DNA of 64,000 nt from Algibacter lectus (GTDB lineage Bacteria; Bacteroidota; Bacteroidia; Flavobacteriales; Flavobacteriaceae): the NCBI RefSeq assembly GCF_900112395.1, contig NZ_FOLN01000006.1:186001-250000 (forward strand). The letters run 5' to 3'. Both the position numbers and the translations under genes were made by a program. Within the stretch, counting starts at the first letter, position 1; every line of letters starts with the position of its first letter. The notes under the pieces were generated by a model. The model worked only from the letters and a program-made list of their open reading frames with translations, had not been told where the DNA came from and ran no database searches. Positions 8,703-28,989 of the stretch are shown piece by piece.

Positions 8703-8842
8703 GTGGTAAATATAGTTATTTAAAACACTTTGCTAATATAATTATTTTGAAGAAGTTTTATAATTAGTGGCATCTTGTTTTTGTAAAGTGCTAAAACAAA
8801 ATGCATCAATATTATATATGTAAAAATTACTATCCTTATTAT

Positions 8843-10135
8843 TTATCGCCTTAAAGCTTCTTTAAACTGATAGAAAAAACGTTCTATTAAACGTAAATCT
8901 TCGGTAATAATTTCAGCAGAACCACGCATTTCTTGTTTAAAATCAATGGTTTTCCCGTAAGAAGTCACTAGTACTTTAGGCAATTCTACATCTATAACAT
9001 ATAAGCCATTTACATCAGGCACTATTGAAATGTTTTTAACAACTCCGTTAAGCACACCAAACTCTGTATCAGGATAATTTTCTATTTTTAAATTCACTTT
9101 TTGACCAATTTTAATTTTTCCAGAATTTTGACCGGGTGCTTTTAACTTAGCTATAAACGAGGAATTTCCGCTAGGAATAATTGTAAAAACCAAATCGCCT
9201 TGATTAACGGTTTGATTAGAATTCCAAAAATTTAAAAATGATACTTTACCATTAATATTAGATTGCAAAACATACTGATATTCCCAATCTCTAATTGCTT
9301 TTTTTAATTGATTAAAAGATTGAATAACATTTTTAAGCAATACCATTTCCTCTTTCACCCTATTAATTTCAGTGCCTTTAGAGGTTTGCTTTGCATTACT
9401 TATTCCTTCTCTAATTTGAGATATTGAAGATTCGAAATTCTTATAATTACGTTCTGCCTGAGCCGCTTCTAGTTGTTTATTCTCGAAGTCTTGAGCAGAA
9501 ATAATACCTTTATCAAACAATAATACATGCCGTTGTAAATCCTTCTTTTTAAAGTCTAATTCCGTTTTATTAATTTCTTTTTGAGACTGAAGACTTCGTA
9601 ATCTTCTATTTAATTCTGAAATGGAATATCTATTTGCCACAGCCTCATTAGAATAAGGTTTTAATTCTTTGTTTAATTGATATTGTATATAGCTATTTTC
9701 AAATAAAGCATATTGAGATTCAATATTCCCTAAAAATAAAAGAGGTAAACTATCTATTGGAAACTTAAAATATTGTCTATTTAAAGTTATAGTATCTATA
9801 ATCGATTTAAGCTTAAATACATCTTTATAATTAGCCGTATTTTCTAATATAGCCAAACGCTGCCCACCACTAACCTCTTGATTGTCTTTTATTAAAATCG
9901 CTTCTAACTTACCTGTAATTTTAGCATATTCTTTTTGTGGCGGAATTTTAGTCGTTATTAAAGCTTCTGATGCAATTATATCTGGATATTTTACTAACCA
10001 AGACAAAAACAACAACAATATTATTAATACAAGAAATAATACATTCCCCCAACGTATCATCCAATGTGGTACTTTGCTAAGTATTTCTTGCACCTCTTCG
10101 CTCCTTAAATCTATGTCTTCTAGTTTGTCTGGCAT
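8843..10135 (-). CDS. HlyD-family secretion adaptor for the RiPP exporter
   Basis: This 430-residue periplasmic adaptor has a cytoplasmic N-terminus and one membrane helix at about residues 30-48. A biotinyl-lipoyl-like piece (ITGKLEAILIKDNQEVSGGQRLAIL) is followed by a long coiled-coil hairpin at about 150-280 and then a beta domain. It bridges an inner-membrane ABC exporter to an outer-membrane channel. It starts one base after the stop of the C39-peptidase ABC transporter, so the pair is transcribed and probably translated together. No TolC-like gene is in the cluster, so the outer-membrane partner must be encoded elsewhere. Confidence 0.9.
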   Translation of the reverse strand: MPDKLEDIDLRSEEVQEILSKVPHWMIRWGNVLFLVLIILLLFLSWLVKYPDIIASEALITTKIPPQKEYAKITGKLEAILIKDNQEVSGGQRLAILENTANYKDVFKLKSIIDTITLNRQYFKFPIDSLPLLFLGNIESQYALFENSYIQYQLNKELKPYSNEAVANRYSISELNRRLRSLQSQKEINKTELDFKKKDLQRHVLLFDKGIISAQDFENKQLEAAQAERNYKNFESSISQIREGISNAKQTSKGTEINRVKEEMVLLKNVIQSFNQLKKAIRDWEYQYVLQSNINGKVSFLNFWNSNQTVNQGDLVFTIIPSGNSSFIAKLKAPGQNSGKIKIGQKVNLKIENYPDTEFGVLNGVVKNISIVPDVNGLYVIDVELPKVLVTSYGKTIDFKQEMRGSAEIITEDLRLIERFFYQFKEALRR

Positions 10136-10136
10136 A

Positions 10137-12335
10137 CTATTTCCCTAATTCTAATTGGTTTTTAACCAAATTATAATAATTCCCTTTTTGCTTTACTAAA
10201 GCTTCATGATTCCCAATTTCCACAATTTTGCCTTGATCTAAGACAACAATTTGATCTGCATTTTTTACAGTACTCAATCTGTGCGCAATAACCACTACCG
10301 TTTTATTTTCAAAAAAAGTATTCAGCTTCTCCATAATCACTTTTTCATTGTTTGCATCTAAAGCTGAGGTTGCTTCATCAAAAAACAAGAAATCAGGGTT
10401 TTTATAAACCGCTCTTGCAATAAGAAGACGTTGCTTTTGCCCAGTACTTAAACCCACACCTTCCATGCCTATTTTAGTGTTGTACGATAATGGTAAAACT
10501 TCTATAAAGTCTTTAATGTTAGCAACATCTACCGCATGCGCCAATTTATCTTTATCTATATAATCTTCGCCAACTGCAATATTGTTAGCAATGGTATCGC
10601 TAAAAATATAGCCTTCCTGCATCACTACACCACATTGGTTTCTCCAAGCTTTTTGAGATACATGTTGTAAATCGTAATTACCAAGTTTTATAGTTCCAGC
10701 ATTAGGTTCGTAAAATTTTAAGAGCAATTTCATTAAGGTGGTTTTACCACTACCACTAGTGCCGACAATAGCCGTGATTTTATTTGAAGGAATAGTTAAA
10801 TCGAGATTTTTTAAAACCATTTGATCTGACCCTGTATAACTAAAGTAAACCTTTTCGAGGCTTAAATCTGCATCTAGAGAAAGGTCTGTTATTTTATTAG
10901 CACCTTGCTGCTCTTCATCTTCTTTATTATGAATTTCTGCCAAGCGCTCTAACGATATTTTAGCATCTTGCACTTCTCTAATAAAGCCAATAAGTTGTGC
11001 TATTGGTGAGTTTAACTGCCCTACTATATATGTAATAGCCAACATCATCCCTAAGGTAATATCACCATCAATTACTAATTTAGCAGAGAGTACGGTAATT
11101 AAAATATTTTTTACTTCATTTATAAAACCAGAACCCACAGTTTGGTATTGCTCGAGTGCTAACCCCTCTATGGATACTTTAAATAGTTTAGCTTGTAAAA
11201 ACTCCCAACCCCATCGCTTTTGTTTTTCAGCATTATGTAATTTTATTTCCTGCATCCCATTTATAAGCTCAATAACTTTACTTTGCTCCTGACTTACTTG
11301 AGAAAAACGCTTGTAATCTAAATCTCTACGCTTTTTTAAGAAAATAATAATCCATAAGAAATAAAGAAAACTCCCTATAAAAAACACACCAAAAACCTGT
11401 AAGCTATAGTATGCCAAAACAATACTAAAAATAACAAGATTCACCATGGAAAAGAGCACGTTTAACGACGATGTGGTTAAAATACTTTCTATACGCTTAT
11501 GGTCGTTTATACGTTGTAGAATATCTCCCGTCATTCTCGTGTCGAAAAAGGCTATTGGCAAATTCATGAGTTTTACAAAAAAATCTGAAACCAGCGATAT
11601 ATTTATTCTTGCACTTAAGTGTAATAGAATCCAGCTTCTAATAACCTCAATAGCTGTGCGCCCAATAAACAAAGCTAATTGGGCAAATAAAATAAGGTAT
11701 ATAAAGTGTACATCTTGATTTTTTATACCAACATCAACAACACTTTGCGTTAGAAAAGGAAAAACAAGATGAAGTAAACTAGCCGCAATTAGCCCGATAA
11801 CTAATTGCCATAAAAACTGCTTATATTTTAATACATATTTTGATATAAACGAAAAACTAAAATCCTTATCGGCCTCATTAGTTGTTGTAGCATACTCCTT
11901 TAAATTAGGTGTTGTTTCTAATAATAAAACAATACCTTCTTCGGTTTCTGAGCTCGCGTTATTACCAATCCAATGTTCTAAAAGGTCGGGTAGGTTATAT
12001 TTAAGCAATCCATGAGCTGGATCTGAAATGTGATATATGCCATTTTTTATTTCATATAAAACAACATAATGGTTTTTATTCCAATGCAAAATACAAGGTA
12101 GCGGTGCTTCTTCTAATTGCTTCGAAGTAATTTTTACACCAAGTGTTCTAAACCCAATACTTTCTGCCGCATCGCTTAATCCTGCCAAACTACTTCCTGA
12201 TCTCGTAGTTTCACTTAAGGTACGTAACTCTTGTAAAGGGATTATTTTATTATAGTGCTTTGCTATTATTTTTAAACAGGTGGCACCACAATCTTTAAAA
12301 TCGAGCTGTTTATAAAAAGGAAACTTTTTAATCAT
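10137..12335 (-). CDS. Peptidase-containing ABC exporter (PCAT, C39 peptidase)
   Basis: This 732-residue exporter begins with a C39 peptidase domain. The catalytic Cys16 lies in KDCGATCL, the His in NHYVVLYE and the Asp in SDPAHG. About six membrane helices (roughly 165-450) follow. The nucleotide-binding domain has Walker A GTSGSGKTTL (~524), signature LSTGQKQRL (~628) and Walker B FLFFDEATSALD. PCATs cut leader peptides after Gly-Gly and export the mature peptide. All six small genes of this cluster carry a Gly-Gly leader end, which makes them the likely substrates. It is separated from the last precursor gene by a hairpin at 12450-12475. Confidence 0.94.
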   Translation of the reverse strand: MIKKFPFYKQLDFKDCGATCLKIIAKHYNKIIPLQELRTLSETTRSGSSLAGLSDAAESIGFRTLGVKITSKQLEEAPLPCILHWNKNHYVVLYEIKNGIYHISDPAHGLLKYNLPDLLEHWIGNNASSETEEGIVLLLETTPNLKEYATTTNEADKDFSFSFISKYVLKYKQFLWQLVIGLIAASLLHLVFPFLTQSVVDVGIKNQDVHFIYLILFAQLALFIGRTAIEVIRSWILLHLSARINISLVSDFFVKLMNLPIAFFDTRMTGDILQRINDHKRIESILTTSSLNVLFSMVNLVIFSIVLAYYSLQVFGVFFIGSFLYFLWIIIFLKKRRDLDYKRFSQVSQEQSKVIELINGMQEIKLHNAEKQKRWGWEFLQAKLFKVSIEGLALEQYQTVGSGFINEVKNILITVLSAKLVIDGDITLGMMLAITYIVGQLNSPIAQLIGFIREVQDAKISLERLAEIHNKEDEEQQGANKITDLSLDADLSLEKVYFSYTGSDQMVLKNLDLTIPSNKITAIVGTSGSGKTTLMKLLLKFYEPNAGTIKLGNYDLQHVSQKAWRNQCGVVMQEGYIFSDTIANNIAVGEDYIDKDKLAHAVDVANIKDFIEVLPLSYNTKIGMEGVGLSTGQKQRLLIARAVYKNPDFLFFDEATSALDANNEKVIMEKLNTFFENKTVVVIAHRLSTVKNADQIVVLDQGKIVEIGNHEALVKQKGNYYNLVKNQLELGK

Positions 12336-12449
12336 TTATATTGATAAGATAGAATATTCTATAGTTTTTTTACTTCTGCATTTACAGAGTTTTTGCTCTA
12401 ACTCTCACTTTTCTGGTATAGTATGAAATTCTCTGTTTTTTAATTAAAC

Positions 12450-12475
12450 AACCCAATTCTAGCAAGAATTGGGTT
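12450..12475. terminator. Hairpin terminator/attenuator between precursor F and exporter genes
   Basis: A perfect 11-bp stem, AACCCAATTCT / AGAATTGGGTT, surrounds the loop AGCA, about 100 nt after the stop of precursor F. On the minus strand it is followed by a short T-rich stretch only. It may partially terminate, keeping precursor RNA abundant relative to the exporter message. Confidence 0.55.
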
Positions 12476-12574
12476 ATTTAATTACTTTAATTTAAAGTTA
12501 TTGAAATTAATAACCATCAGTAGTTTTCTCTTAGATGACCATAGCGTATATTATCTATTCATGGCAAATACCAA

Positions 12575-12760
12575 CTACTGACATCCACATACTTCTATTG
12601 AACTTGGATAATCATAACGACCATCTTCTACCCAATTACCTGGAGTACTTGCTCCTCCTGGAGCATGCCATACTAGATAATATGATGAAGGCGAAACTTT
12701 CCCGCCTTGGATTTGTTCTAAATCTATCTTATTATCTTTAAAATTCGATAATTTTTTCAT
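12575..12760 (-). CDS. RiPP precursor F, Gly-Gly leader, PGGAST core
   Basis: This 61-residue peptide has a 20-residue leader (MKKLSNFKDNKIDLEQIQGG) ending in Gly-Gly. The core contains PGGASTPGN and ends in VCGCQ, the only pair of Cys in the precursor set. The leader is nearly the same as those of precursors A, C and D, 2.7-3.7 kb upstream, and resembles the GG-leader natural product precursors of Bacteroidota. It lies downstream of the SPASM maturase and upstream of the exporter. A copy of the 39-nt cluster repeat lies 20 nt before the start. Maturation by the neighbouring ATP-grasp and SPASM proteins and cleavage by the C39 exporter are inferred. Confidence 0.85.
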   Translation of the reverse strand: MKKLSNFKDNKIDLEQIQGGKVSPSSYYLVWHAPGGASTPGNWVEDGRYDYPSSIEVCGCQ

Positions 12761-12780
12761 AATCTAAAATTTAATAAAAT

Positions 12781-12820
12781 ACCTACTCTATTATTAATAA
12801 GCTTTTCGGTTTACGCTTTT
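12781..12820 (-). repeat. Cluster repeat R, imperfect copy upstream of precursor F
   Basis: This 40-nt copy matches the 39-nt repeat at 15972-16010 except for a few changes and one inserted base. The shared + strand blocks are ACCTACTCTATT and AAGCTTTTCGG. It lies 20 nt upstream of the precursor start, the position of a promoter or leader element. Confidence 0.7.
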
Positions 12821-13207
12821 ACTTGTTATGAGTTTAACTTTTTTTATGTATTCCACGAATTAGTTACACTATTATCTTCAATACAACCTTTAACTATATT
12901 TTTCACTTTAACTAAAAATTAAAAACTAGTGTAATCATTTCAAAATATTAAACTTATTAAAACATTCATGTCTGCTTGTATTATATTAACCTTGTGGTTA
13001 CTTCTGCTTTTAAAAGCTAATGTCAAAACAAAATTTACTTTACAACATGGCTTTCTATATACTTAGATACCTTTAAAAAAAATAATAACACATTTTCTTT
13101 AAAATTTTAGTAATTATAAAAAATTCGCACTTCAAATCGTAGCATCCTTTCCTCCTTTTACAATAAGAAATAAATTACAACTATTTAATAGCAAGAAAAG
13201 TTGTTCT
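12821..13207. other. Intergenic region between SPASM maturase and precursor F
   Basis: 387 nt of very AT-rich DNA with no open frame or recognisable RNA. One purine-rich AGGAGG run on the minus strand near 13151 precedes only a 12-codon frame and is not called. The region probably holds the 3' end of the maturase transcript and the promoter of precursor F. Confidence 0.5.
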
Positions 13208-14266
13208 TTATTTAATATTAAGATAAGACATAGCATAATGCTCTATTGCTTTTACTTTTAATGGGTTTGTACTCCAATCTTCCCACTCGTTTGTATAAGG
13301 ACTATAACCACATTTTAAAGGCTTTGAGAAATCGTTATCCGGGTCTTCTTTATAAGCTCTACAATCTGTACAGATATATCTGAATTCGCAGTCTTTACAA
13401 ACCTCGATTTCGTCTTTAGAAACATTCCAATATTTTTTAAAATCTTTAACCTTTAAAGCTTGTTGAAAAGATGTATTTTCTATATTTCCAAAACTTTTAG
13501 ACATACTTGGGCAGTTTTTAATATCCCCATTAACATCGATCGAAATTTTCTTATTTAGACAGGTATTATGATTTTGAGCTTCTGTAAAAACAGCTATTGT
13601 AGACACAAAATAACCTTGATTAATTACACCACAACAGGTATTATCTAGAATTACCGCTTTAGTTTGTTTTATAAAATCGTCTTCATAATCGTTTGGAGCA
13701 CTATGCAAAAGAACGCGACCTATTAAAGGAGAATTTAATACTAAAGTTTTAACCTGCTCTACATAATTTTTTTCATTAGAATACTGAGCTATAAAATCAA
13801 CATTTTTAAAGTAGCCTTTAGAACAATACTCTAAAATACCCTCCATTTTCTCTAAGCATAAAGTAGTGTAAGCTCGAACTTCTAAATATTTACATTGAAC
13901 ATCTGTAAGATTATTAATTACTTTTTTAATATCATAATCCGATTTTTCATCTAAATCGATTATAGCATTATTAATAACTTCTGATGTATCATATTCTAAA
14001 GGAAAATCTGGAAAACTATCAGGAGAGCTTGTATAAAAACCTATACCCTCGTCTATAAAATAGTTTATGTATTCCATAAGCGTTTCTTGGGTCTCTAGAT
14101 CTAATTTATTTTTAACCTGAATTAGAGGTGTGTTTTTTAGCTCAATTAGAATATCATATAATTCATTGGGTATAAAAAAAAGTTTGTTTTCTTGTAAATC
14201 ACTTATCACGGTTCTAGTTGCACCTATAGTTAGCGTGCAGTTCGAAAAAATTAAGAAATATTTCAT
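13208..14266 (-). CDS. gwsS: SPASM-domain peptide maturase, grasp-with-spasm system
   Basis: This 352-residue protein's C-terminal third is a SPASM domain: C236, G x4 C252, then C290-x2-C293-x5-C299-x2-C302 and C319, suited to hold auxiliary Fe-S clusters. The radical SAM CxxxCxxC motif is not present anywhere in the N-terminal two thirds, so it may be a barrel that lost the SAM cluster. Its start overlaps the stop of precursor E (ATGA), which itself overlaps the ATP-grasp gene. The pairing of this architecture with an ATP-grasp protein is the hallmark of the grasp-with-spasm RiPP system. Its reaction, or a purely leader-binding role, is not known to me. Confidence 0.85.
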   Translation of the reverse strand: MKYFLIFSNCTLTIGATRTVISDLQENKLFFIPNELYDILIELKNTPLIQVKNKLDLETQETLMEYINYFIDEGIGFYTSSPDSFPDFPLEYDTSEVINNAIIDLDEKSDYDIKKVINNLTDVQCKYLEVRAYTTLCLEKMEGILEYCSKGYFKNVDFIAQYSNEKNYVEQVKTLVLNSPLIGRVLLHSAPNDYEDDFIKQTKAVILDNTCCGVINQGYFVSTIAVFTEAQNHNTCLNKKISIDVNGDIKNCPSMSKSFGNIENTSFQQALKVKDFKKYWNVSKDEIEVCKDCEFRYICTDCRAYKEDPDNDFSKPLKCGYSPYTNEWEDWSTNPLKVKAIEHYAMSYLNIK

Positions 14267-14472
14267 TTAAAAAAATTAAAGCTTTTAGTTACGGGTTTAG
14301 GAGCTCCACCTGTAGGTGTTTTAACAGATTCGTAAACCTCCATTTTTATCACTCGGTTTGGACGCCTTGAAACGACTGGTTGGATAGGTTCACCGCCACC
14401 AATTTCTTCGACTTCAGAAAGCTGATATAATAAAGGCAAATTTTCTACCCCTTGTTTAATGTTTTTTTTCAT
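14263..14472 (-). CDS. Small Gly-Gly leader peptide E between the two maturases
   Basis: This 69-residue peptide begins MKKNIKQGVENLPLLYQL and reaches a leader end SEVEEIGGG at residues 19-27. The basic C-terminal part contains SRRPNR and VKTPTGGAPKP. Its start lies 17 nt inside the ATP-grasp gene and its stop overlaps the SPASM gene, so all three are translationally coupled. Its leader differs from that of the PGGAST precursors. It could be a second type of substrate or an accessory leader-like protein. The Gly-Gly end suggests C39 processing. Function is inferred from position and the motif. Confidence 0.75.
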   Translation of the reverse strand: MKKNIKQGVENLPLLYQLSEVEEIGGGEPIQPVVSRRPNRVIKMEVYESVKTPTGGAPKPVTKSFNFFK

Positions 14473-15370
14473 GTAATGTTTTTAAGTGTAACGCTATCTT
14501 TTTCTCTAAAAAGTAATTACAAGGTTCTGATACCATAGAAAATTGACCAATAGGATTAACTTCTAGAAAATAGATAAGATTATCTTGCCCTAACATAAAA
14601 TCTAGAGAGCCCGTTTCTAAATTTAAGGTTTCCATTAAAAAGTGAATTTTATCTTCAACTTCCTTTGTAAGTTGATATGGTACCTTCCGTAAATCTTTAC
14701 TATATTTTCTATGATCCACCTCTGAATTGGGCGTCATTATAGCCATAGAAAAAATTTCCTTATTGAAATAAAATGTTCTAATTTCGAGTGTTTTGGGTAT
14801 AAATTTTTGAATAAATGAACTTGGAAATGTAGAAGAAACAGCCTCTATATTAGTAACTTCTTTTGTATAAAACATAGTAAAGCACTCTCTACTAGATAAA
14901 GGAAATGTATTCCCCAAGCTTTTTGTTATTACTCTACCGTGTTCTTCTTTGAAATTTTGAAGTTGCTTTTTACTATTTATAATTTTATATTCAGGAATAT
15001 TAAACCCCACAGCTTTTGCTTCATCTAAAACAATTAATTTATTAACATCAATAGAACTGGGATGAGATAGCCAATTTTTAGATTTAAGCAAATACATAAA
15101 ATATTGAGATAGCATTTTATTTTCATCTCTAATATTATCATTTAAGGTAATTATATTTTTTTCATTATCAACAACGGTGGCTTGAGGAAGCCCTTTAACG
15201 AAACCCCATCTCCAAAACCAAACGGTACTCACTTTTTTTATATTTTTAAGATCCCAATTAGAATAATTTTCTGCATGAAGCCTTTTAAAGTCCTGTTTAT
15301 AATATGACAACCAATCCATTACACTTTCTGGTGTGGTATCATGTTGGCTATTTGTTAGTAGTAAAACCAT
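14456..15370 (-). CDS. gwsG: ATP-grasp peptide maturase, grasp-with-spasm system
   Basis: About 304 residues from the ATG at 15370; an upstream in-frame TTG at 15388 gives six extra hydrophobic residues and is less likely. N-terminal VLLLTNSQHDTTPESVMDWL and C-terminal SLDFMLGQDNLIYFLEVNP, with the Glu/Asn metal-ATP residues, match ATP-grasp ligases of the graspetide (microviridin-like) type. Such enzymes link Ser/Thr/Lys side chains to Asp/Glu side chains of a precursor core as esters or amides. It lies downstream of precursors A-D and overlaps gene E. Substrate assignment is by gene order. A hairpin at 15383-15406 sits across its 5' region. Confidence 0.88.
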   Translation of the reverse strand: MVLLLTNSQHDTTPESVMDWLSYYKQDFKRLHAENYSNWDLKNIKKVSTVWFWRWGFVKGLPQATVVDNEKNIITLNDNIRDENKMLSQYFMYLLKSKNWLSHPSSIDVNKLIVLDEAKAVGFNIPEYKIINSKKQLQNFKEEHGRVITKSLGNTFPLSSRECFTMFYTKEVTNIEAVSSTFPSSFIQKFIPKTLEIRTFYFNKEIFSMAIMTPNSEVDHRKYSKDLRKVPYQLTKEVEDKIHFLMETLNLETGSLDFMLGQDNLIYFLEVNPIGQFSMVSEPCNYFLEKKIALHLKTLHEKKH

Positions 15371-15382
15371 AAGTAGAAATAT

Positions 15383-15406
15383 GCCCAACCTTGTTAAGGG
15401 TTGAGC
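15383..15406 (-). terminator. Hairpin between precursor D and ATP-grasp gene (attenuator?)
   Basis: GCCCAACC (15383-15390) pairs with GGTTGAGC (15399-15406); seven of eight positions are Watson-Crick and one is a wobble on the minus strand. It sits between the abundant-type precursor gene and the maturase start, 12 nt before the ATG. No strong T-run follows, so it may be an attenuator or mRNA-processing hairpin rather than a full terminator. Confidence 0.4.
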
Positions 15407-15427
15407 ATTTTTAATATTAACTAATTA

Positions 15428-15613
15428 TTAATAAAATGACCCCTCACTAATATCGCCATGAACCAATGATTGAGTATTCCCTGCTGTAGAAGCTCCTCCA
15501 GGCATCTCCCAAACTACCCATCCTGATATTTTTGGAGAAGGATTACCATAAGAACCACCTTGAATTTCTTCTAAATCTATATTGCTGCTTTTAAAATCTG
15601 ATAATTTTTTCAT
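15428..15613 (-). CDS. RiPP precursor D, Gly-Gly leader, PGGAST core
   Basis: This 61-residue peptide has the 20-residue leader MKKLSDFKSSNIDLEEIQGG followed by a 41-residue core with VVWEMPGGASTAGN. The core tail has acidic residues and Ser/Thr that an ATP-grasp ligase could cross-link. It is the precursor closest to the ATP-grasp gene (about 58 nt). The ATG at 15613 is preceded by A/T-rich sequence and, 28 nt further, by a shortened copy of the cluster repeat R. Homology of the leader to precursors A, C and F is visible along its whole length. Confidence 0.87.
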   Translation of the reverse strand: MKKLSDFKSSNIDLEEIQGGSYGNPSPKISGWVVWEMPGGASTAGNTQSLVHGDISEGSFY

Positions 15614-15641
15614 TATTTCTTATTTTATTATTTTATTAAAT

Positions 15642-15673
15642 ACATACTTTATTTTTATCGGCTTACAAGTGCT
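15642..15673 (-). repeat. Cluster repeat R, shortened copy upstream of precursor D
   Basis: This degenerate copy keeps ACATACTTTATT...TCGGCTTAC but lacks about nine bases of the middle compared with the 39-nt copies. The position relative to the start (28 nt) is similar. Recognised by alignment by eye; weaker than the other three copies. Confidence 0.5.
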
Positions 15674-15686
15674 AATAAAACCTCTA

Positions 15687-15711
15687 AAAAGTATTCTATT
15701 AAAATACTTTT
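15687..15711 (-). terminator. Hairpin with T-run after precursor C
   Basis: AAAAGTATT (15687-15695) pairs with AATACTTTT (15703-15711) around a 7-nt loop. On the minus strand the stem ends in CTTTTTAG, a short T tract. It lies 19 nt after the stop of precursor C and could end a short precursor transcript. Confidence 0.5.
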
Positions 15712-15729
15712 AATAAACAATTTGCGAGT

Positions 15730-15948
15730 TTATGGTCTAGGAGCTGGAGCAAAATCGTTTGGTCCATAATCAGTCCAAACCCAATTTCCGTTTATATCAG
15801 TACCAATAGTGGCTATGTAGTTTCCCGGAGTAGATGCGCCTCCTGGATATTCATTTATAGCAGATAAAGACATACTTGGAAAACTTCTACCTCCATTAAC
15901 ATCATTTAACTCTACCTTGTTTTCTTTAAAATCTGATAATTTTTTCAT
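15730..15948 (-). CDS. RiPP precursor C, Gly-Gly leader, PGGAST core
   Basis: This 72-residue peptide has the leader MKKLSDFKENKVELNDVNGG and a 52-residue core. The core contains PGGASTPGNYIA, then TDINGNWVWTDYGPND and a Pro-rich end (APAPRP). The segment after the PGGAST motif is also recognisable in precursor A (NYIAS...DVNGVW), so A and C are duplicates that have diverged. Asp and Thr/Ser in that segment are candidates for ATP-grasp cross-links. An intact 39-nt repeat R starts 24 nt upstream of the ATG. Confidence 0.87.
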   Translation of the reverse strand: MKKLSDFKENKVELNDVNGGRSFPSMSLSAINEYPGGASTPGNYIATIGTDINGNWVWTDYGPNDFAPAPRP

Positions 15949-15971
15949 GTTTTTAGATATTTAATTATTAA

Positions 15972-16010
15972 ACCTACTCTATTTGTATAAGCTTTTCGGC
16001 TACCGCTTTT
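15972..16010 (-). repeat. Cluster repeat R, 39-nt copy upstream of precursor C
   Basis: 39 nt identical to 16476-16514. It starts 24 nt upstream of the precursor C ATG. On the minus strand it holds GCGGTAGCCG followed by CTTATACAAAT and AGAGTAGG. Its position and perfect conservation against poorly conserved flanks suggest a promoter or 5' leader element. Confidence 0.8.
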
Positions 16011-16015
16011 AAATA

Positions 16016-16165
16016 TTATAATCCTAATTTCTTTCTTATTTCATCACCTATAGGATCTGGTGTACAATTCCCATTCATTATTCCGTTATCTCCAGTTCCT
16101 CCAAAAACGGTTTTTGTTGCTTTAGTTTGCAATTGAAAATCACGGTAATCATTTAAATTTTTCAT
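16016..16165 (-). CDS. RiPP precursor-like peptide B, 49 codons, FGG leader end
   Basis: A short frame of 49 codons starts at the ATG ending at 16163 and stops at TAA. The peptide begins MKNLNDYRDFQLQTKATKTV and then FGG (residues 21-23). The 26-residue tail contains NGNCTPDPIGDE and ends RKKLGL. It has the length, charge profile and Gly-Gly end expected of a C39-exporter substrate. It lies in tandem between precursors A and C with the same strand. Its leader differs from theirs and it lacks the 39-nt repeat upstream. It may be a distinct peptide class carried by the same exporter, for example a signal or bacteriocin-like peptide. Confidence 0.65.
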   Translation of the reverse strand: MKNLNDYRDFQLQTKATKTVFGGTGDNGIMNGNCTPDPIGDEIRKKLGL

Positions 16166-16241
16166 TTTTTAATATGTTTTAAAGTTTATTTATTCATCTA
16201 AAAGAAGCCTGAATAAAATATTATTATCTAGTAACAATTTA

Positions 16242-16457
16242 CTACCCTAAATATCTCGGTGTTATTGAAGAATCAAGTGGTGCCATTTCAAGGTGAGACC
16301 AAACCCCATTGACATCATGACTTGCACTAGCAATATAGTTTCCTGGGTCAGATAGTGGTCCTGGGTGAGCCTTTATAAAGCGAGAAGAAAATGTTGTTCC
16401 CCCTTTTACATTTTTTAACTCTACTTTGTTTTCTTGAAAATCTGATAATTTTTTCAT
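16242..16457 (-). CDS. RiPP precursor A, Gly-Gly leader, variant core
   Basis: This 71-residue peptide has the leader MKKLSDFQENKVELKNVKGG. In the core the family motif is altered to PGPLSDPGN, followed by YIASASHDVNGVWSHLEMAP, related to precursor C. It is the first gene of the minus-strand cluster and faces the divergent sigma factor gene. An intact copy of repeat R lies 18 nt before the ATG. The changed core motif may mean a differently modified product. Leader conservation and the tandem setting leave little doubt that it is a precursor. Confidence 0.85.
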   Translation of the reverse strand: MKKLSDFQENKVELKNVKGGTTFSSRFIKAHPGPLSDPGNYIASASHDVNGVWSHLEMAPLDSSITPRYLG

Positions 16458-16475
16458 TTTAAAATTTATTTAAAC

Positions 16476-16514
16476 ACCTACTCTATTTGTATAAGCTTTT
16501 CGGCTACCGCTTTT
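16476..16514 (-). repeat. Cluster repeat R, 39-nt copy upstream of precursor A
   Basis: 39 nt identical to 15972-16010, 18 nt upstream of the precursor A start and inside the divergent intergenic region shared with the sigma factor gene. See the copy at 15972 for internal features. Confidence 0.8.
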
Positions 16515-16695
16515 TTTGAGAAACTATTTTATAGTTCCAAGTTTTTATTAAAAAGAAGAAAAGGCTATTACCATGGCTTCCCACGTATATGATGTAGATT
16601 AAAAAAATAATAACAAGTTTTTTTTATTTCCCCTCAGAACTGAAAGAAATTCAGAAAGGCAGATATCTTTATTTTTAGTATCATTGTGGTTCCCT

Positions 16696-17298
16696 ATGAC
16701 AGAAATTAATATCAAAAAAATAATTGATAGCGCCGTTAATGGAAATGAATTTCCTTTTAATAGATTTTTTGAAGATACTTTCAAAAAATTATTACCCAAA
16801 CTAACCGCTCTCACGAACTCAAAGGACGATGCACAAGACGTTTTTATAACATCTATGCATAAATTTTGGGAACGCTTTGTTATTAAACAAGAAGAACCGC
16901 CTCTTAATAGTATAGCCTATATTTATATGATGTGCCGAAATGCATGGCTACATAAAAAAAGACAGCCATGGAACTCTGTTATTTTAGTAGATAATAATGC
17001 GTACAGTCTTAATAAAGCTAAGAATGATGTTTTAATAACAGAGCAGGAAAAAACAGATATAGAAAACGATATTTCACTAAAGCACAAAGCTTTATCTATT
17101 GCCATTAATGAGTTATGTGATAAATGCAAAAAACTTATTGAAGCAGAGCTAGATAACAATATAAAATTAAAAGATTTACAGCAAGAAATGGGGTATAATA
17201 ATTACCAAGCTTTAGTACAAGCAAAATATAATTGTAAAAAAAGACTAGTTAAAAAAGTTACTGAAGCTTTAATTAACTTGAAAAAAAATAATTCTTAA
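16696..17298 (+). CDS. ECF-type RNA polymerase sigma factor
   Basis: About 200 residues from the ATG at 16696; the frame extends four codons further to a TTG at 16684, judged less likely. The region-2-like part is AQDVFITSMHKFWERF with SIAYIYMMCRNAWLHKKR. The region-4 helix-turn-helix-like part is NNIKLKDLQQEMGYNNYQALVQAKYNCKKRLVKK. The protein is divergent from well-known ECF groups, but the two-domain layout and length fit. It starts a three-gene plus-strand operon (2-nt gap to the next gene) and diverges from the RiPP cluster. The downstream single-pass membrane protein probably controls it. Confidence 0.8.
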   Translation: MTEINIKKIIDSAVNGNEFPFNRFFEDTFKKLLPKLTALTNSKDDAQDVFITSMHKFWERFVIKQEEPPLNSIAYIYMMCRNAWLHKKRQPWNSVILVDNNAYSLNKAKNDVLITEQEKTDIENDISLKHKALSIAINELCDKCKKLIEAELDNNIKLKDLQQEMGYNNYQALVQAKYNCKKRLVKKVTEALINLKKNNS

Positions 17299-17300
17299 TA

Positions 17301-18041
17301 ATGATTCCAGAAAAAGATTTAGACTTAATTACACGTTTTTTCGACTTAGACCTTTCTTATGAAGAATTAAAGGAATTTGAAAAAAGAATATTACTCGACA
17401 TAAAATTTCGCGAAAGATGCGAAGCTTATAAGGCAGCCAACGATATAGTAAACACTACTTATCCAGATAAAGATAAACTGGTACGAGCAGAAAAATGGAA
17501 GACCTTATTGAAGGATAAGGAAACAACAATAGCTACAAAAAAAACGCCGTGGAAATGGGTTGGTGCTATTGCAGCAGGTTTTATTATAACATTTTTTATT
17601 TGGCAACTTAATTCCACATTTCAAGAACCAGACTTAAATAAATTAATTGCTAGTTCTTGGAATAAAAAAATTGGTTTAGATTTTAACACCATTCGTAGTA
17701 CTAAAAAAGATTCTTTAAAAAGCCTCGTTAGCAGTGCGTACAGCACTTATAGCGACATGAATTACCAATCTACCATTAACTTACTTAGTGATTATAAAGC
17801 AGACACTATTTATTATGAAGATGTTTTACTGCTTAGAGCCTTATCTTTCTATAAAAAAGAGGATTCGGATACTGCTTTAAAAACATTAGACACGCTTTCT
17901 AAATACCATACAGGTAAAAAATCTAAAGTAGCAAATTGGTATAAAGGCCTTATTTATCTTGAACAAGGCGATATAAAAACTGCCGAAAAATTTATAGAAC
18001 TACCTAAACATAAAACTAAAGAATTGAAACTAAGAGAGTGA
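17301..18041 (+). CDS. Single-pass membrane TPR protein, anti-sigma-like
   Basis: This 246-residue protein has a charged cytoplasmic N-terminal ~80 residues, one membrane helix at about 83-104 (WVGAIAAGFIITFFIW) and a periplasmic helical C-terminus resembling TPR units (SVLLRALSFYKK-like spacing, LDTLSKYHTG, AKNWYKGLIYLEQGD-like). There is no zinc-binding HxxxCxxC motif. The position two bases after an ECF sigma gene and the in-out topology fit an anti-sigma factor that senses an envelope signal. The anti-sigma role is inferred from architecture and gene order only. Confidence 0.7.
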   Translation: MIPEKDLDLITRFFDLDLSYEELKEFEKRILLDIKFRERCEAYKAANDIVNTTYPDKDKLVRAEKWKTLLKDKETTIATKKTPWKWVGAIAAGFIITFFIWQLNSTFQEPDLNKLIASSWNKKIGLDFNTIRSTKKDSLKSLVSSAYSTYSDMNYQSTINLLSDYKADTIYYEDVLLLRALSFYKKEDSDTALKTLDTLSKYHTGKKSKVANWYKGLIYLEQGDIKTAEKFIELPKHKTKELKLRE

Positions 18042-18088
18042 AATGTTATAATATCTATTAACAAATACTTTCAACGTTTTCAATACTC

Positions 18089-21000
18089 ATGATAATGAAT
18101 AAACATCTATTTTTCTTTTGGATCTTAGTTAGTTTTCTTTTTATACCTAGCTTGTATGCTCAAAAAAAAGCTGACACTTTAGCTGCTTCAATAAATTACA
18201 AAACTGCAGATTCACTTTTAAAAAAAAGAGATTTTAATACATCTGTTCTTTTATTTAATGAAGCCCTTAATGTATATGAAAAAACAAGTGCTTTCAAAAA
18301 AATAGCAGATTGCTATTATAAATTAGGCAAATGCTACGAGGAATCTTTAGATTATAATAAAGCACAAAAATTTTACGAGAAAAGTTTAAAGCTAAAAAAA
18401 GAAAAGCTACCATCAAACCATGAGAGTATCTCGATATCGCTCTCCAGTTTAGGACGTTTAAATTTTATTCAATCTAACTACAAAACGGCTTTAAGTTTTT
18501 TTGAAGAAGCCTTAAAGGTTTCATTGAAGGCACATAAAGAGACCGATCAAGTTATAGGAAATAGGTACAATAATATAGGCCTCTGTTATTATAATTTAGG
18601 AGACTTACACACCTCATTAAAATACCTAGAGAAAAGCTTAAATATTGATATAAAATCGCTAGAAGAAAACCATATCAATATTGGCTTTAGCTACATTAAC
18701 ATCGGGCTTATTTATTTTGATCTTATGCAGGATGAAAAGGCCATGATGTATTACCAAAAATCTTTACCTTATTTTGTTAAAAACGACTATAACAAAGGCC
18801 TTTTAGGTGTTTACAACAACACAGGAAACATATTGAAATCTCAAGGAGAATTAAATAAAGCTTTAAATTACTATCAAAAAAGCTTGGCCATAACCCTTGA
18901 GTACTTTAAAGAAGATGTTTCTTTACTGTCATTAATTTACATGAATATTGGCAATACTTACGGCATGTTGGGAGCTTATGATGACGCTCTAATATATTTA
19001 AACAAATCTTTAGAGTATTACAAAACCATTTTGGATAAAAACCATGATAAAATAGCAAAACTATATGACAATATTGGATCGCTATATTCATCTAAAGGAG
19101 ATTACAATACAGCTCTCAAATATTCTAAAAAAGGATTAACTATTCAAGAAAAACTAGGTAATCATCTTGAAACAGCATATTCACTAAAGCTATTAGGAGA
19201 ACTCAAGTATAAATATGAGTTTTATGATGAAGCCTTATTTTACAATAAAAAAGGATTAAAATTAACTCAAAAAATATATGGAGCTACGCATTTATTAACT
19301 TCAAATCTCCACTACAATATGGGTATTACCCATTATAAAAAAGAAAACTACAAAACTGCCTTAAAATATTTAGATAGCGCCATTATTTCCAATTCTAAAA
19401 ATGCAGCTGCAAATAAAAGTAAAGCGCTTAACCTTAATAATTATTTTGATCACCAATTATTATTAAAAACGATACATAAAAAGGCACAAACATTACAGCT
19501 ACAATCTATTCAAAATAAAGACAATAAGCAGCTAGAACAAAGTGCAACGCTATATTATCAAGCAGATTATATTATAGATTATATTCGCGAATCTATAAAC
19601 AATCATCAAGATAAATTAGTTTTAGCAGAACAAGCTAAAGCAATTTATGCAGATGCTATTACAACACATTTACTACAATATAAAAATACAACAGAGAAAA
19701 AACATCTAATAAACGCATGGCACTTTACTGAAAAAAGCAGATCTAATACTTTAAAAGATTTACTCAATGATACTAATGCTAAAAACTTCTCAAACCTACC
19801 AAGTGAACTCCTAGATTTTGAAAAAAGCATCAAATCAGACATAGCCTACTATCAATCACAAATTGTTGCAGAACAATCTGAAAACACTTTAGATACAGAT
19901 AAAATTAAAAGCTTTGAAAACGAATTATTTACTATTAATCAAAAGAAAGATTCTTTAATAAAAGTACTTAAAAAGGAATATCCCAAATATTATCAATTAA
20001 AGCATAAAACAGAGTCCTTTTCTGTTAAGGATATTCAAGATAAAATAAATAATAGAACGACAGTATTAGAGTTTTTCTCTACTGAAAGTAAAATCTACGC
20101 CTTTACAATTTCAAAAAATGATATTTCAATAAAAGAATTAACAATTTCTGAATTAGATAAAAAAATAGAACGCTTTAATACATCAATTACTTCGGAAAAT
20201 TTAAATGATTATAAAAAAATAGCATCCGTTTTATATCAAGAACTTATTAAACCCTTAGATAAAAAACTGATAGGAGATGAATTAATAATTATTCCAGATG
20301 ACATATTATGGTATTTAAATTTTGATTTATTACTCACAAATAACAACAATAAAAACAGTAGAGAACTTCCCTATTTATTAAAAAAGCACGCTATTTCTTA
20401 TTCCAATTCAGCAGATTTATTATTCAATCCTATAATAAAAAACACTTCAGAATCTAAAACCTTAAAAAAGTGTCTCGCCTTTTCATATTCAAACGCACCA
20501 AGTACTAAAAAACCGAATAAAAACAGCGTTTCTCGTGCTAATGATATTAAAGAAGATTTACCAGGTGCGAGAAAAGAAATTGACATGATATCTAAAATTA
20601 TAGATGGTCAATATTATTATGGAGTTAACGCCATAGAATCTACCTTTAAACAAAATGTAGAAAAATATAACATTTTACATTTAGCCTTACATGGAGAGGT
20701 TGATAATGAAAATCCAGAAAACTCAAAATTGTTCTTCACAAAAAGCAAAGACACTATAGAGGATGATATTTTATACAATCATGAACTTTTTGCTTTAAAT
20801 ATTCCCGCAGATCTTGTTGTACTAAGTGCTTGTAATACTGGTATAGGTGAAATTGCTAACGGGGAAGGTATAATGAGTTTAGGAAACGCTTTTCAATATG
20901 CAGGAGCCAAAAGCTTACTATTAAGCAAATGGGAAGTACATGACAAAAGCACCCCCGAATTAATGAAATGTTTTTATTCAAACCTAAAAAAAGGCATGAA

Positions 21001-21217
21001 TAAGCCTAAAGCGCTACAGCAAGCTAAATTAAAATATCTAGCAAATACAGAAGCCTTTTACACCAACCCATTTTATTGGGGAAGTTTTTATATTATAGGG
21101 AATACAGATGCTATAAGTTTAAAAAACAATTCAAATAACACCTATTATTGGATTGCTGGAGTTCTTTTTATCTTATCTCTAGTATACTTATTAAAAAAAT
21201 ATAAGTCTAAAAATTAA
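18089..21217 (+). CDS. TPR-CHAT domain peptidase, predicted periplasmic and membrane-anchored
   Basis: This 1042-residue protein has a signal peptide ending near SLYAQ (residues ~1-25) and roughly nine or more TPR units from 30 to 430. A helical linker follows, then a C-terminal CHAT domain. The caspase-like dyad is visible: H868 in LALHGE and C915 in LSACNTG, followed by GEGIMSLGNAFQYAGA. A final hydrophobic helix (~1015-1035) is followed by a short basic tail KKYKSKN, so the peptidase should face the periplasm and be anchored in the inner membrane. CHAT proteins are caspase-like proteases activated through their TPRs. It is the last gene of the sigma/anti-sigma-like operon. Its substrate is unknown; the neighbouring anti-sigma-like protein or secreted RiPPs are possibilities. 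Confidence 0.88.
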   Translation: MIMNKHLFFFWILVSFLFIPSLYAQKKADTLAASINYKTADSLLKKRDFNTSVLLFNEALNVYEKTSAFKKIADCYYKLGKCYEESLDYNKAQKFYEKSLKLKKEKLPSNHESISISLSSLGRLNFIQSNYKTALSFFEEALKVSLKAHKETDQVIGNRYNNIGLCYYNLGDLHTSLKYLEKSLNIDIKSLEENHINIGFSYINIGLIYFDLMQDEKAMMYYQKSLPYFVKNDYNKGLLGVYNNTGNILKSQGELNKALNYYQKSLAITLEYFKEDVSLLSLIYMNIGNTYGMLGAYDDALIYLNKSLEYYKTILDKNHDKIAKLYDNIGSLYSSKGDYNTALKYSKKGLTIQEKLGNHLETAYSLKLLGELKYKYEFYDEALFYNKKGLKLTQKIYGATHLLTSNLHYNMGITHYKKENYKTALKYLDSAIISNSKNAAANKSKALNLNNYFDHQLLLKTIHKKAQTLQLQSIQNKDNKQLEQSATLYYQADYIIDYIRESINNHQDKLVLAEQAKAIYADAITTHLLQYKNTTEKKHLINAWHFTEKSRSNTLKDLLNDTNAKNFSNLPSELLDFEKSIKSDIAYYQSQIVAEQSENTLDTDKIKSFENELFTINQKKDSLIKVLKKEYPKYYQLKHKTESFSVKDIQDKINNRTTVLEFFSTESKIYAFTISKNDISIKELTISELDKKIERFNTSITSENLNDYKKIASVLYQELIKPLDKKLIGDELIIIPDDILWYLNFDLLLTNNNNKNSRELPYLLKKHAISYSNSADLLFNPIIKNTSESKTLKKCLAFSYSNAPSTKKPNKNSVSRANDIKEDLPGARKEIDMISKIIDGQYYYGVNAIESTFKQNVEKYNILHLALHGEVDNENPENSKLFFTKSKDTIEDDILYNHELFALNIPADLVVLSACNTGIGEIANGEGIMSLGNAFQYAGAKSLLLSKWEVHDKSTPELMKCFYSNLKKGMNKPKALQQAKLKYLANTEAFYTNPFYWGSFYIIGNTDAISLKNNSNNTYYWIAGVLFILSLVYLLKKYKSKN

Positions 21218-23737: not shown

Positions 23738-23820
23738 GGGCATTCCCCTATCGGGTCGGGCTTTCCGCTATATCTTTTTTGAGAAAAACAAAAAAGGATG
23801 CCGCATCAATCCCTAATGCA
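23738..23820 (+). repeat. Structured intergenic repeat, family C copy 1
   Basis: This ~83-nt element begins GGGCATTCCCC, contains GGGTCGGGCTTTC and ATGCCGC, and ends TCAATCCCTAATGC. Its ends pair (GCATT with AATGC) and an inner hairpin forms around 23773-23799. It is homologous to the element at 31735-31836 on the other strand. Confidence 0.65.
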
Positions 23821-23876
23821 CTTATCTACTATGGTTTGTTTTAAACCAAAGCTTTTTTTTGTGTGCCAGATTTTAG

Positions 23877-28831: not shown

Positions 28832-28837
28832 TTGTTA

Positions 28838-28958
28838 GTTATCTATCCAAACACCAATAAATGAATTGGTAATTTAAGTAGAATTTAGCACCTTCATTAC
28901 TAAGTGTAAAGGGTTGCTAAGGCTTCAGCGGGTCTATCCCTCCACCTTTCTTGATAAC
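28838..28958 (-). promoter_or_regulatory. SAM-I (S-box) riboswitch
   Basis: The minus strand carries the S-box core: GTTATCAAGAAAGGTGGAGG, then GGGA..GACCC, CTGAAGCC, TAGCAACC, and the 3' part AAGGTGCTAAATTC. P1 closes with GTTATC (28958-28953) against GATAAC (28843-28838). An ACCAAT/ATTGGT stem lies between the core and P1. A terminator follows at once, so SAM binding should stop transcription of metY-thrA-metZ. The match to the S-box consensus is strong and in the right genetic position. Confidence 0.95.
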
Positions 28959-28989
28959 ATTTCAGTAAGTTTATTGAACTTTGTGAATG

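Follow-up and report, generated by a model that had tools for sequence, protein, structure and literature searches.

A grasp-with-spasm graspetide cluster with predicted RNA control and core turnover on a 12-kb island of Algibacter lectus

Introduction

How a single set of modifying enzymes could handle several peptides of diverged sequence is the question raised by a gene cluster contained in the window, the entire stretch of 64,000 nucleotides from Algibacter lectus that was analysed in this study. The initial annotation of this stretch described six small genes with Gly-Gly (GG) leaders, which accompany one ATP-grasp and one SPASM maturase and lead into a dedicated exporter, and it considered such sets to be undescribed. 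For the arrangement as such, this does not hold, since many unrelated precursors per ATP-grasp locus with MKKL leaders were described in Bacteroidetes (PMC8939145, 2022), where an LPL gene and a SPASM gene also form part of the arrangement and where strict conservation of one Ser/Thr and one Asp/Glu, probably joined to each other, characterises the precursors of 'branch 5'. A cluster-23 lipoprotein is present in almost all grasp-with-spasm (branch 5) loci, but the island contains no obvious candidate for it. With respect to the products, the claim stands, as no characterisation was found in the literature searched.

Results

Organisation of the cluster

Open reading frames and family models place all genes of the cluster on the minus strand, where they are transcribed in the order p5, p4, p3, p2, ATP-grasp, a gene of 69 codons, SPASM, p1, PCAT and HlyD. 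The small open reading frames, the ATP-grasp gene, the SPASM gene and the PCAT/HlyD exporter reside where they had initially been located.

8843..10135, minus strand: HlyD-type membrane fusion protein of the exporter, resembling the HlyD of most related grasp-with-spasm loci
10137..12335, minus strand: PCAT, C39 peptidase/ABC exporter, matched by peptide cleavage/export and NHLP exporter models
13208..14266, minus strand: putative partner protein with RRE, half-barrel and SPASM parts, TIGR04193 (348 bits), without CX3CX2C
14263..14472, minus strand: predicted LPL-family accessory gene, 69 aa, from its conserved slot and motifs
14456..15370, minus strand: predicted graspetide synthetase, ATP-grasp, TIGR04192-like, 304 aa, ATG start (228.8 bits)

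With 228.8 bits, the ligase stays 1.2 bits short of the TIGR04192 cut-off of 230; this family is by far its best match, its LEVNPxGQ motif is readable in the sequence and its gene adjoins that of the TIGR04193 protein. Equally readable are the Cys and His/Asp motifs of the C39 domain in PCAT, for which cleavage behind the GG leader is expected. The locus is a grasp-with-spasm cluster (graspetide branch 5) that consists of ATP-grasp ligase, SPASM protein, C39-PCAT and HlyD. The earlier view of a RiPP locus of graspetide type, in which several cores of diverged sequence are combined with a single ATP-grasp and a dedicated C39 exporter, is supported. Its gene content also agrees with graspetide group 14 of a RODEO survey (PMC13097080), whose members all occur with a SPASM protein and often with an NHLM-type exporter, and by this shared content alone the locus probably belongs to that group, of which no member was characterised in the survey.

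Precursor peptides with a common leader and core motif

12575..12760, minus strand: precursor p1, 61 aa, leader and PGGASTPGN core; absent from the sister species
15428..15613, minus strand: precursor p2, 61 aa, leader and core motif; core 95% identical in the sister species
15730..15948, minus strand: precursor p3, 72 aa, leader and core motif; absent from the sister species
16016..16165, minus strand: peptide p4, 49 aa, GG leader unrelated to the others; no DUF805b element
16242..16457, minus strand: precursor p5, 71 aa, leader and core motif; hypervariable core

The leader common to p1, p2, p3 and p5 (MKKLSxF...GG) had been recognised initially, whereas a second similarity of these peptides, the motif PGGxSxPGN in their cores, had been overlooked. 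In these four peptides and two copies from the sister species, Ser38 and Asp50 (p1 numbering) are invariant, which fits the rule for branch 5 precursors (PMC8939145). When compared with the precursor models of NCBIfam and Pfam, all of the small open reading frames stayed without a significant match. A profile built from the six peptides, when searched within the genus, matched the window genome and the sister species only, and among 397 genomes of the family it found the window genome and one marginal match (E 0.0075) whose reading frame is interrupted by stops. Because the matches are so restricted, the resemblance in leader and core exceeds what would be expected by chance, and the PGGxSxPGN cores appear confined to two species of one genus. 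In p5, the conserved Ser is not followed by Thr, so ring patterns may vary among the precursors.

A separate observation concerns 44 grasp-with-spasm precursor cores collected from several genera, 13 of which contain an EF-hand/dockerin-like loop (D-x-[DNS]-x-[DNS]-[GD]-x5-[DE]; loci L028, L043, L045, L047, L051, L055, L058 and L064; also L141), compared to 0.2 expected in shuffled cores, a comparison that involves partly homologous peptides. The acids of this loop might act as acceptors in ring formation, as ligands of a metal or in both roles, and the DxNGxW sequence found in the window may be a shortened relative.

The fifth peptide, p4, has no match elsewhere among 299 genomes of the family, and the proposal that it leaves the cell unmodified, as a signal or bacteriocin that uses the same exporter without being a substrate of the ligase, has a probability that we place only slightly below even. 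Its leader differs, it lacks a DUF805b element and it is nearly invariant between two species whose neighbouring cores diverge; against this, p4 is flanked by p3 and p5 as part of one series of genes and its core contains Thr, Asp and Glu.

RNA elements upstream of the precursors

12780..12819, minus strand: DUF805b RNA (RF02914), 5' region of p1, 43.1 bits
15971..16009, minus strand: DUF805b RNA upstream of p3, 41.7 bits
16475..16513, minus strand: DUF805b RNA upstream of p5, 43.5 bits
15638..15680, minus strand: degenerate DUF805b copy upstream of p2, identified by eye, GTAAGCCGATAAAAATAAAGTATGTATT; below the Rfam threshold

In sequence and hairpin, the elements preceding p1, p3 and p5 match the DUF805b RNA family above its gathering score of 35.6 bits, although the family is named after another downstream gene whereas the element here precedes RiPP precursors. 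Upstream of p3 and p5, 31 nucleotides are identical, and the same pattern precedes precursors in other genera. The degenerate element before p2, which was not reported by the Rfam scans, may be non-working. The hairpin is reflected in the covariation of 58 distinct elements, picked by a regular expression on loop and tail that left the stem unselected and was independent of the Rfam fit: the four-pair stem shows 91% paired cells compared to 64% after shuffling, with C-G, G-C, T-A and A-T all found at one position.

The Rfam model detects four DUF805b sites in the window genome. In five of the six other genomes with a grasp-with-spasm locus that were scanned, an element is found at a distance of up to 8 kb from the SPASM gene, and these linked sites amount to 7 where 0.1 would be expected (Poisson P about 1e-11), a rough figure as the positions of both the sites and the loci were taken from lists. 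At least one element is contained in 91 of 149 genomes of the family. Open reading frames were found within 80 nucleotides of 48 of 50 such elements, almost all of them 16-27 nucleotides downstream, and a crude classification assigns a hydrophobic N-terminus of Sec type to about 35 of them and a GG-leader peptide to 7-9. It thus appears that DUF805b marks exported products in general, with RiPPs constituting one part. In the literature searched we found no description of its role, to which this position is a possible clue. The family-wide DUF805b sites on which this observation is based are L098-L167.

Two other interpretations of the upstream sequence were abandoned. The exact 31-mer does not define a genome-wide regulon, as only two copies were found when up to 3 mismatches were allowed, and it is superseded by the Rfam model. 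Similarly, the element is unlikely to be a sigma-factor promoter, since the hairpin covaries and since the element has a much wider distribution (91/149 genomes) than the TPR gene of the sigma operon (4/299).

The fourth site of the genome (L127, 1559-2223, on contig C25) is found before a Cys-containing peptide of 35 residues (MKTKESMISEILANKAKQPSGSTHCSNCGHCSSTL) and a protein of 159 residues, latter of which resembles, by eye, a protein beside the ATP-grasp of locus L031; the region is a possible second peptide system. Other RNAs above gathering score in the window are a SAM riboswitch (28836-28960) and a Flavo-1 RNA (23750-23821).

An island with stable enzymes and changing cores

In two congeners (G001 and G003), the flanks located at 8.7-8.8 kb and 21.2 kb of the window are joined at an empty site, and in a third (G004) the SPASM and sigma genes are also absent. 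The region from about 8789 to 21214, a 12-kb island that includes a divergent sigma/TPR/CHAT operon, is one unit of presence and absence. In the sister species (G002, locus L022), the enzymes are about 96-99% identical to those of the window, and the copy of p4 is identical at 149 of 150 nucleotides (98% identical). In contrast, the core of p5 has retained 71% nucleotide and 55% amino acid identity to its positional orthologue, with a 5' region that is 98.6% identical. In the sister locus, p1 is missing between SPASM and PCAT, p3 is absent from the species, and the sister p2 carries the upstream region of the window p3 (95.7%). Together with the pattern in p5, this combination is as expected if recombination takes place at the 5' regions and leaders that the precursors have in common.

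The absence of p1 and p3 from the sister species and the conservation of p2 and p4 would also agree with a decaying set in which only some members, such as p2 and p4, are functional and the assumed peptide library is a product of neutral paralogue turnover. We consider this unlikely in light of frames that are all intact, the presence of leader, GG, Ser and Asp in every copy, and a good DUF805b element at three of them. Moreover, several precursors are also found at many related loci, including those described in PMC8939145.

A SPASM protein that lacks the radical-SAM motif

The protein assigned to TIGR04193 (348 bits, cut-off 175) had initially been viewed as a maturase acting next to the ATP-grasp enzyme. 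Both genes are present, but a catalytic role in the radical-SAM sense is not supported, given the absence of the motif CX3CX2C from 36 of 36 aligned proteins, the window protein and 35 homologues, and by its sequence the protein is not a canonical radical-SAM enzyme. What is conserved in the SPASM region are eight cysteines (C212, C236, C252, C290, C293, C299, C302 and C319). They conform to the pattern CX9-15GX4C...CX2CX5CX3C...C, with C236-X10-G-X4-C252 followed by C290, C293, C299, C302 and C319, except that the last spacing is X2 rather than X3, and the region matches PF13186 above gathering (2.2e-06).

An AlphaFold2 model based on a 22-row alignment (mean pLDDT 72, pTM 0.39) is well predicted in residues 1-80 and of low confidence in the SPASM part, leaving the RRE part as the only firm region. 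Residues 1-85, with pLDDT values mostly between 80 and 96, adopt in this model a PqqD-like winged-helix RRE fold, whose best match is the RRE of a lasso-peptide system (6jx3, Z 10.2, 2.0 A), with further RREs ranking next (8t19, 9.5; 5v1v, 9.3; 5v1u, 9.2). The following part, residues 91-220, has a similarity of intermediate score to one half of a TIM barrel, and for residues 220-352 the fold matches are not firm. The best long matches of the model in Foldseek are sactipeptide and SuiB maturases. We infer that the protein descended from an RRE-bearing radical-SAM maturase that has lost the site of its SAM cluster, and that it probably binds the leaders on behalf of the ligase as its partner.

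The eight conserved cysteines, the presence of Cys in the cores of p1 and p4, and the radical-SAM chemistry assumed in PMC8939145 could alternatively point towards a second catalytic maturase that employs its auxiliary Fe-S centres for redox chemistry, for example on these cysteines, before or after ester formation. Given that the motif is missing in all aligned proteins, that the cores of p2, p3 and p5 do not contain Cys, and that the modelled barrel is merely half a TIM barrel, we regard such activity as quite improbable.

The divergent sigma/TPR/CHAT operon

16696..17298, plus strand: divergent ECF-type sigma factor in the island, from sub-threshold sigma-70 matches
17301..18041, plus strand: predicted membrane protein with C-terminal TPR, possible anti-sigma factor, from weak TPR matches and its position after sigma
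18089..21217, plus strand: TPR-CHAT protein, caspase-like protease fold family, a certain assignment (PF12770, 1.4e-56)

The second of these proteins contains a hydrophobic segment that was read from its sequence. The operon recalls type III-E CRISPR systems, where sigma factors are controlled by CHAT proteolysis. In its narrow form, the sigma/TPR/CHAT triad is found in 4 of 299 genomes. Since it is part of the same presence/absence unit as the peptide genes, it could be that the peptides act on the operon or are controlled by it, for instance by inhibiting the CHAT protein, by serving as its substrates or by being targets of the sigma factor. A TPR-CHAT gene is also located about 2.8 kb upstream of PCAT in the distant grasp-with-spasm locus of genome G213, with a sigma gene just past it, and TIGR04193 occurs in 2 of the 3 other narrow-triad genomes, although away from the triad. 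Despite this suggestive link, a functional relationship is very doubtful, as the triad is located away from any grasp-with-spasm gene in G055, G195 and G197 and the sigma gene has no copy of the precursor element in front of it. The apparent CHAT neighbours of loci L026 and L043 are in fact TPR histidine kinase and TPR-AraC proteins. In G197, two GG-leader peptide genes of another type are found directly 3' of the triad (L097, 13712-14481).

The small gene between ligase and SPASM protein

The gene at 14263-14472 overlaps the ends of both flanking enzyme genes, and its product contains the LPL motif (NLPLLY) and ends in a KPVTKSFNF motif at the C-terminus. Of 37 loci with adjacent ATP-grasp and SPASM genes, 36 harbour in the same slot an open reading frame of 45-90 residues, with an LPL-like motif in 22 and a KPISK-like end in 25, whereas GG is found in the window and its sister only. 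The location directly upstream of the SPASM gene corresponds to the LPL family, which is always immediately 5' of SPASM and has no conserved GG (PMC8939145). Because slot and motifs match this family and GG is not retained, the gene is, on sequence grounds, an LPL accessory gene and no precursor, which reduces the six GG-leader peptides of the initial annotation to five and, of its two unrelated leaders, leaves that of p4. That it would be a sixth precursor, for which its GGG and its location within the cluster could be invoked, is hardly credible in view of the position and motifs shared across 36 of 37 loci.

Discussion

The properties of the locus suggest that it is a grasp-with-spasm graspetide cluster on a 12-kb island with predicted modification, export, RNA control and core turnover, a reading to which we assign a probability of about 0.72. 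As such, it is one more example of a published kind of peptide system. With the branch 5 loci (PMC8939145) it shares ATP-grasp, LPL, SPASM, PCAT, HlyD and several GG precursors with MKKL leaders, in which Ser/Thr and Asp/Glu are conserved. It differs in its PGGxSxPGN cores, found in two species of one genus, and in its DUF805b elements and the missing SAM motif of the SPASM protein, of which we found no mention in the accessible part of that work.

In the proposed mechanism, the island would be gained or lost as a unit. With its RRE domain, the SPASM protein would bind the common leader of p1, p2, p3 and p5, and together with the small LPL protein it would act as partner of the ligase. Latter would activate the conserved Asp and link it to the conserved Ser of the core, and a second ring could connect the neighbouring Thr to a second acid, so that one or two macrolactones would be accompanied by a loss of 18 or 36 Da. 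As known from its family, PCAT would cleave after GG and the product would leave via HlyD. The elements that precede p1, p3 and p5, at 20-30 nucleotides from their start codons, may set precursor synthesis gene by gene, and the pattern found in the sister species suggests that duplication and recombination in the shared 5' region and leader could cause a rapid turnover of cores while leader and enzymes stay constant.

The idea of a leader-binding partner has a precedent in rosaritide (MirA/B/C; PMC13097080), since its ligase needs a partner, MirC, whose N-domain weakly resembles an RRE. However, this partner is PpiC-like instead of a SPASM protein and the system is actinobacterial. Chryseoviridin equally originates from Flavobacteriia, with several precursors per locus that undergo duplication and exchange, but contains a microviridin-like core and a different ligase family. 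The more general proposal that TIGR04193 is a radical-SAM fold which, after losing its SAM chemistry, turned into an RRE/Fe-S partner that offers fast-evolving cores to a single ATP-grasp, combined with a DUF805b-based dose control of each precursor, is tentative, and we consider it possible rather than probable. In the literature searched, we did not find the helper protein, the control elements of RNA type and the rapid divergence of the peptides in combination.

Collectively, our analysis provides a candidate answer to the question of how one ligase could handle unrelated cores, which would be explained if the constant 'second maturase' were a leader-binding partner devoid of SAM chemistry. 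The two sister species offer a natural comparison of core turnover, and DUF805b shows a strong association with these precursors and, in a wider sense, with genes of exported products in this bacterial family.
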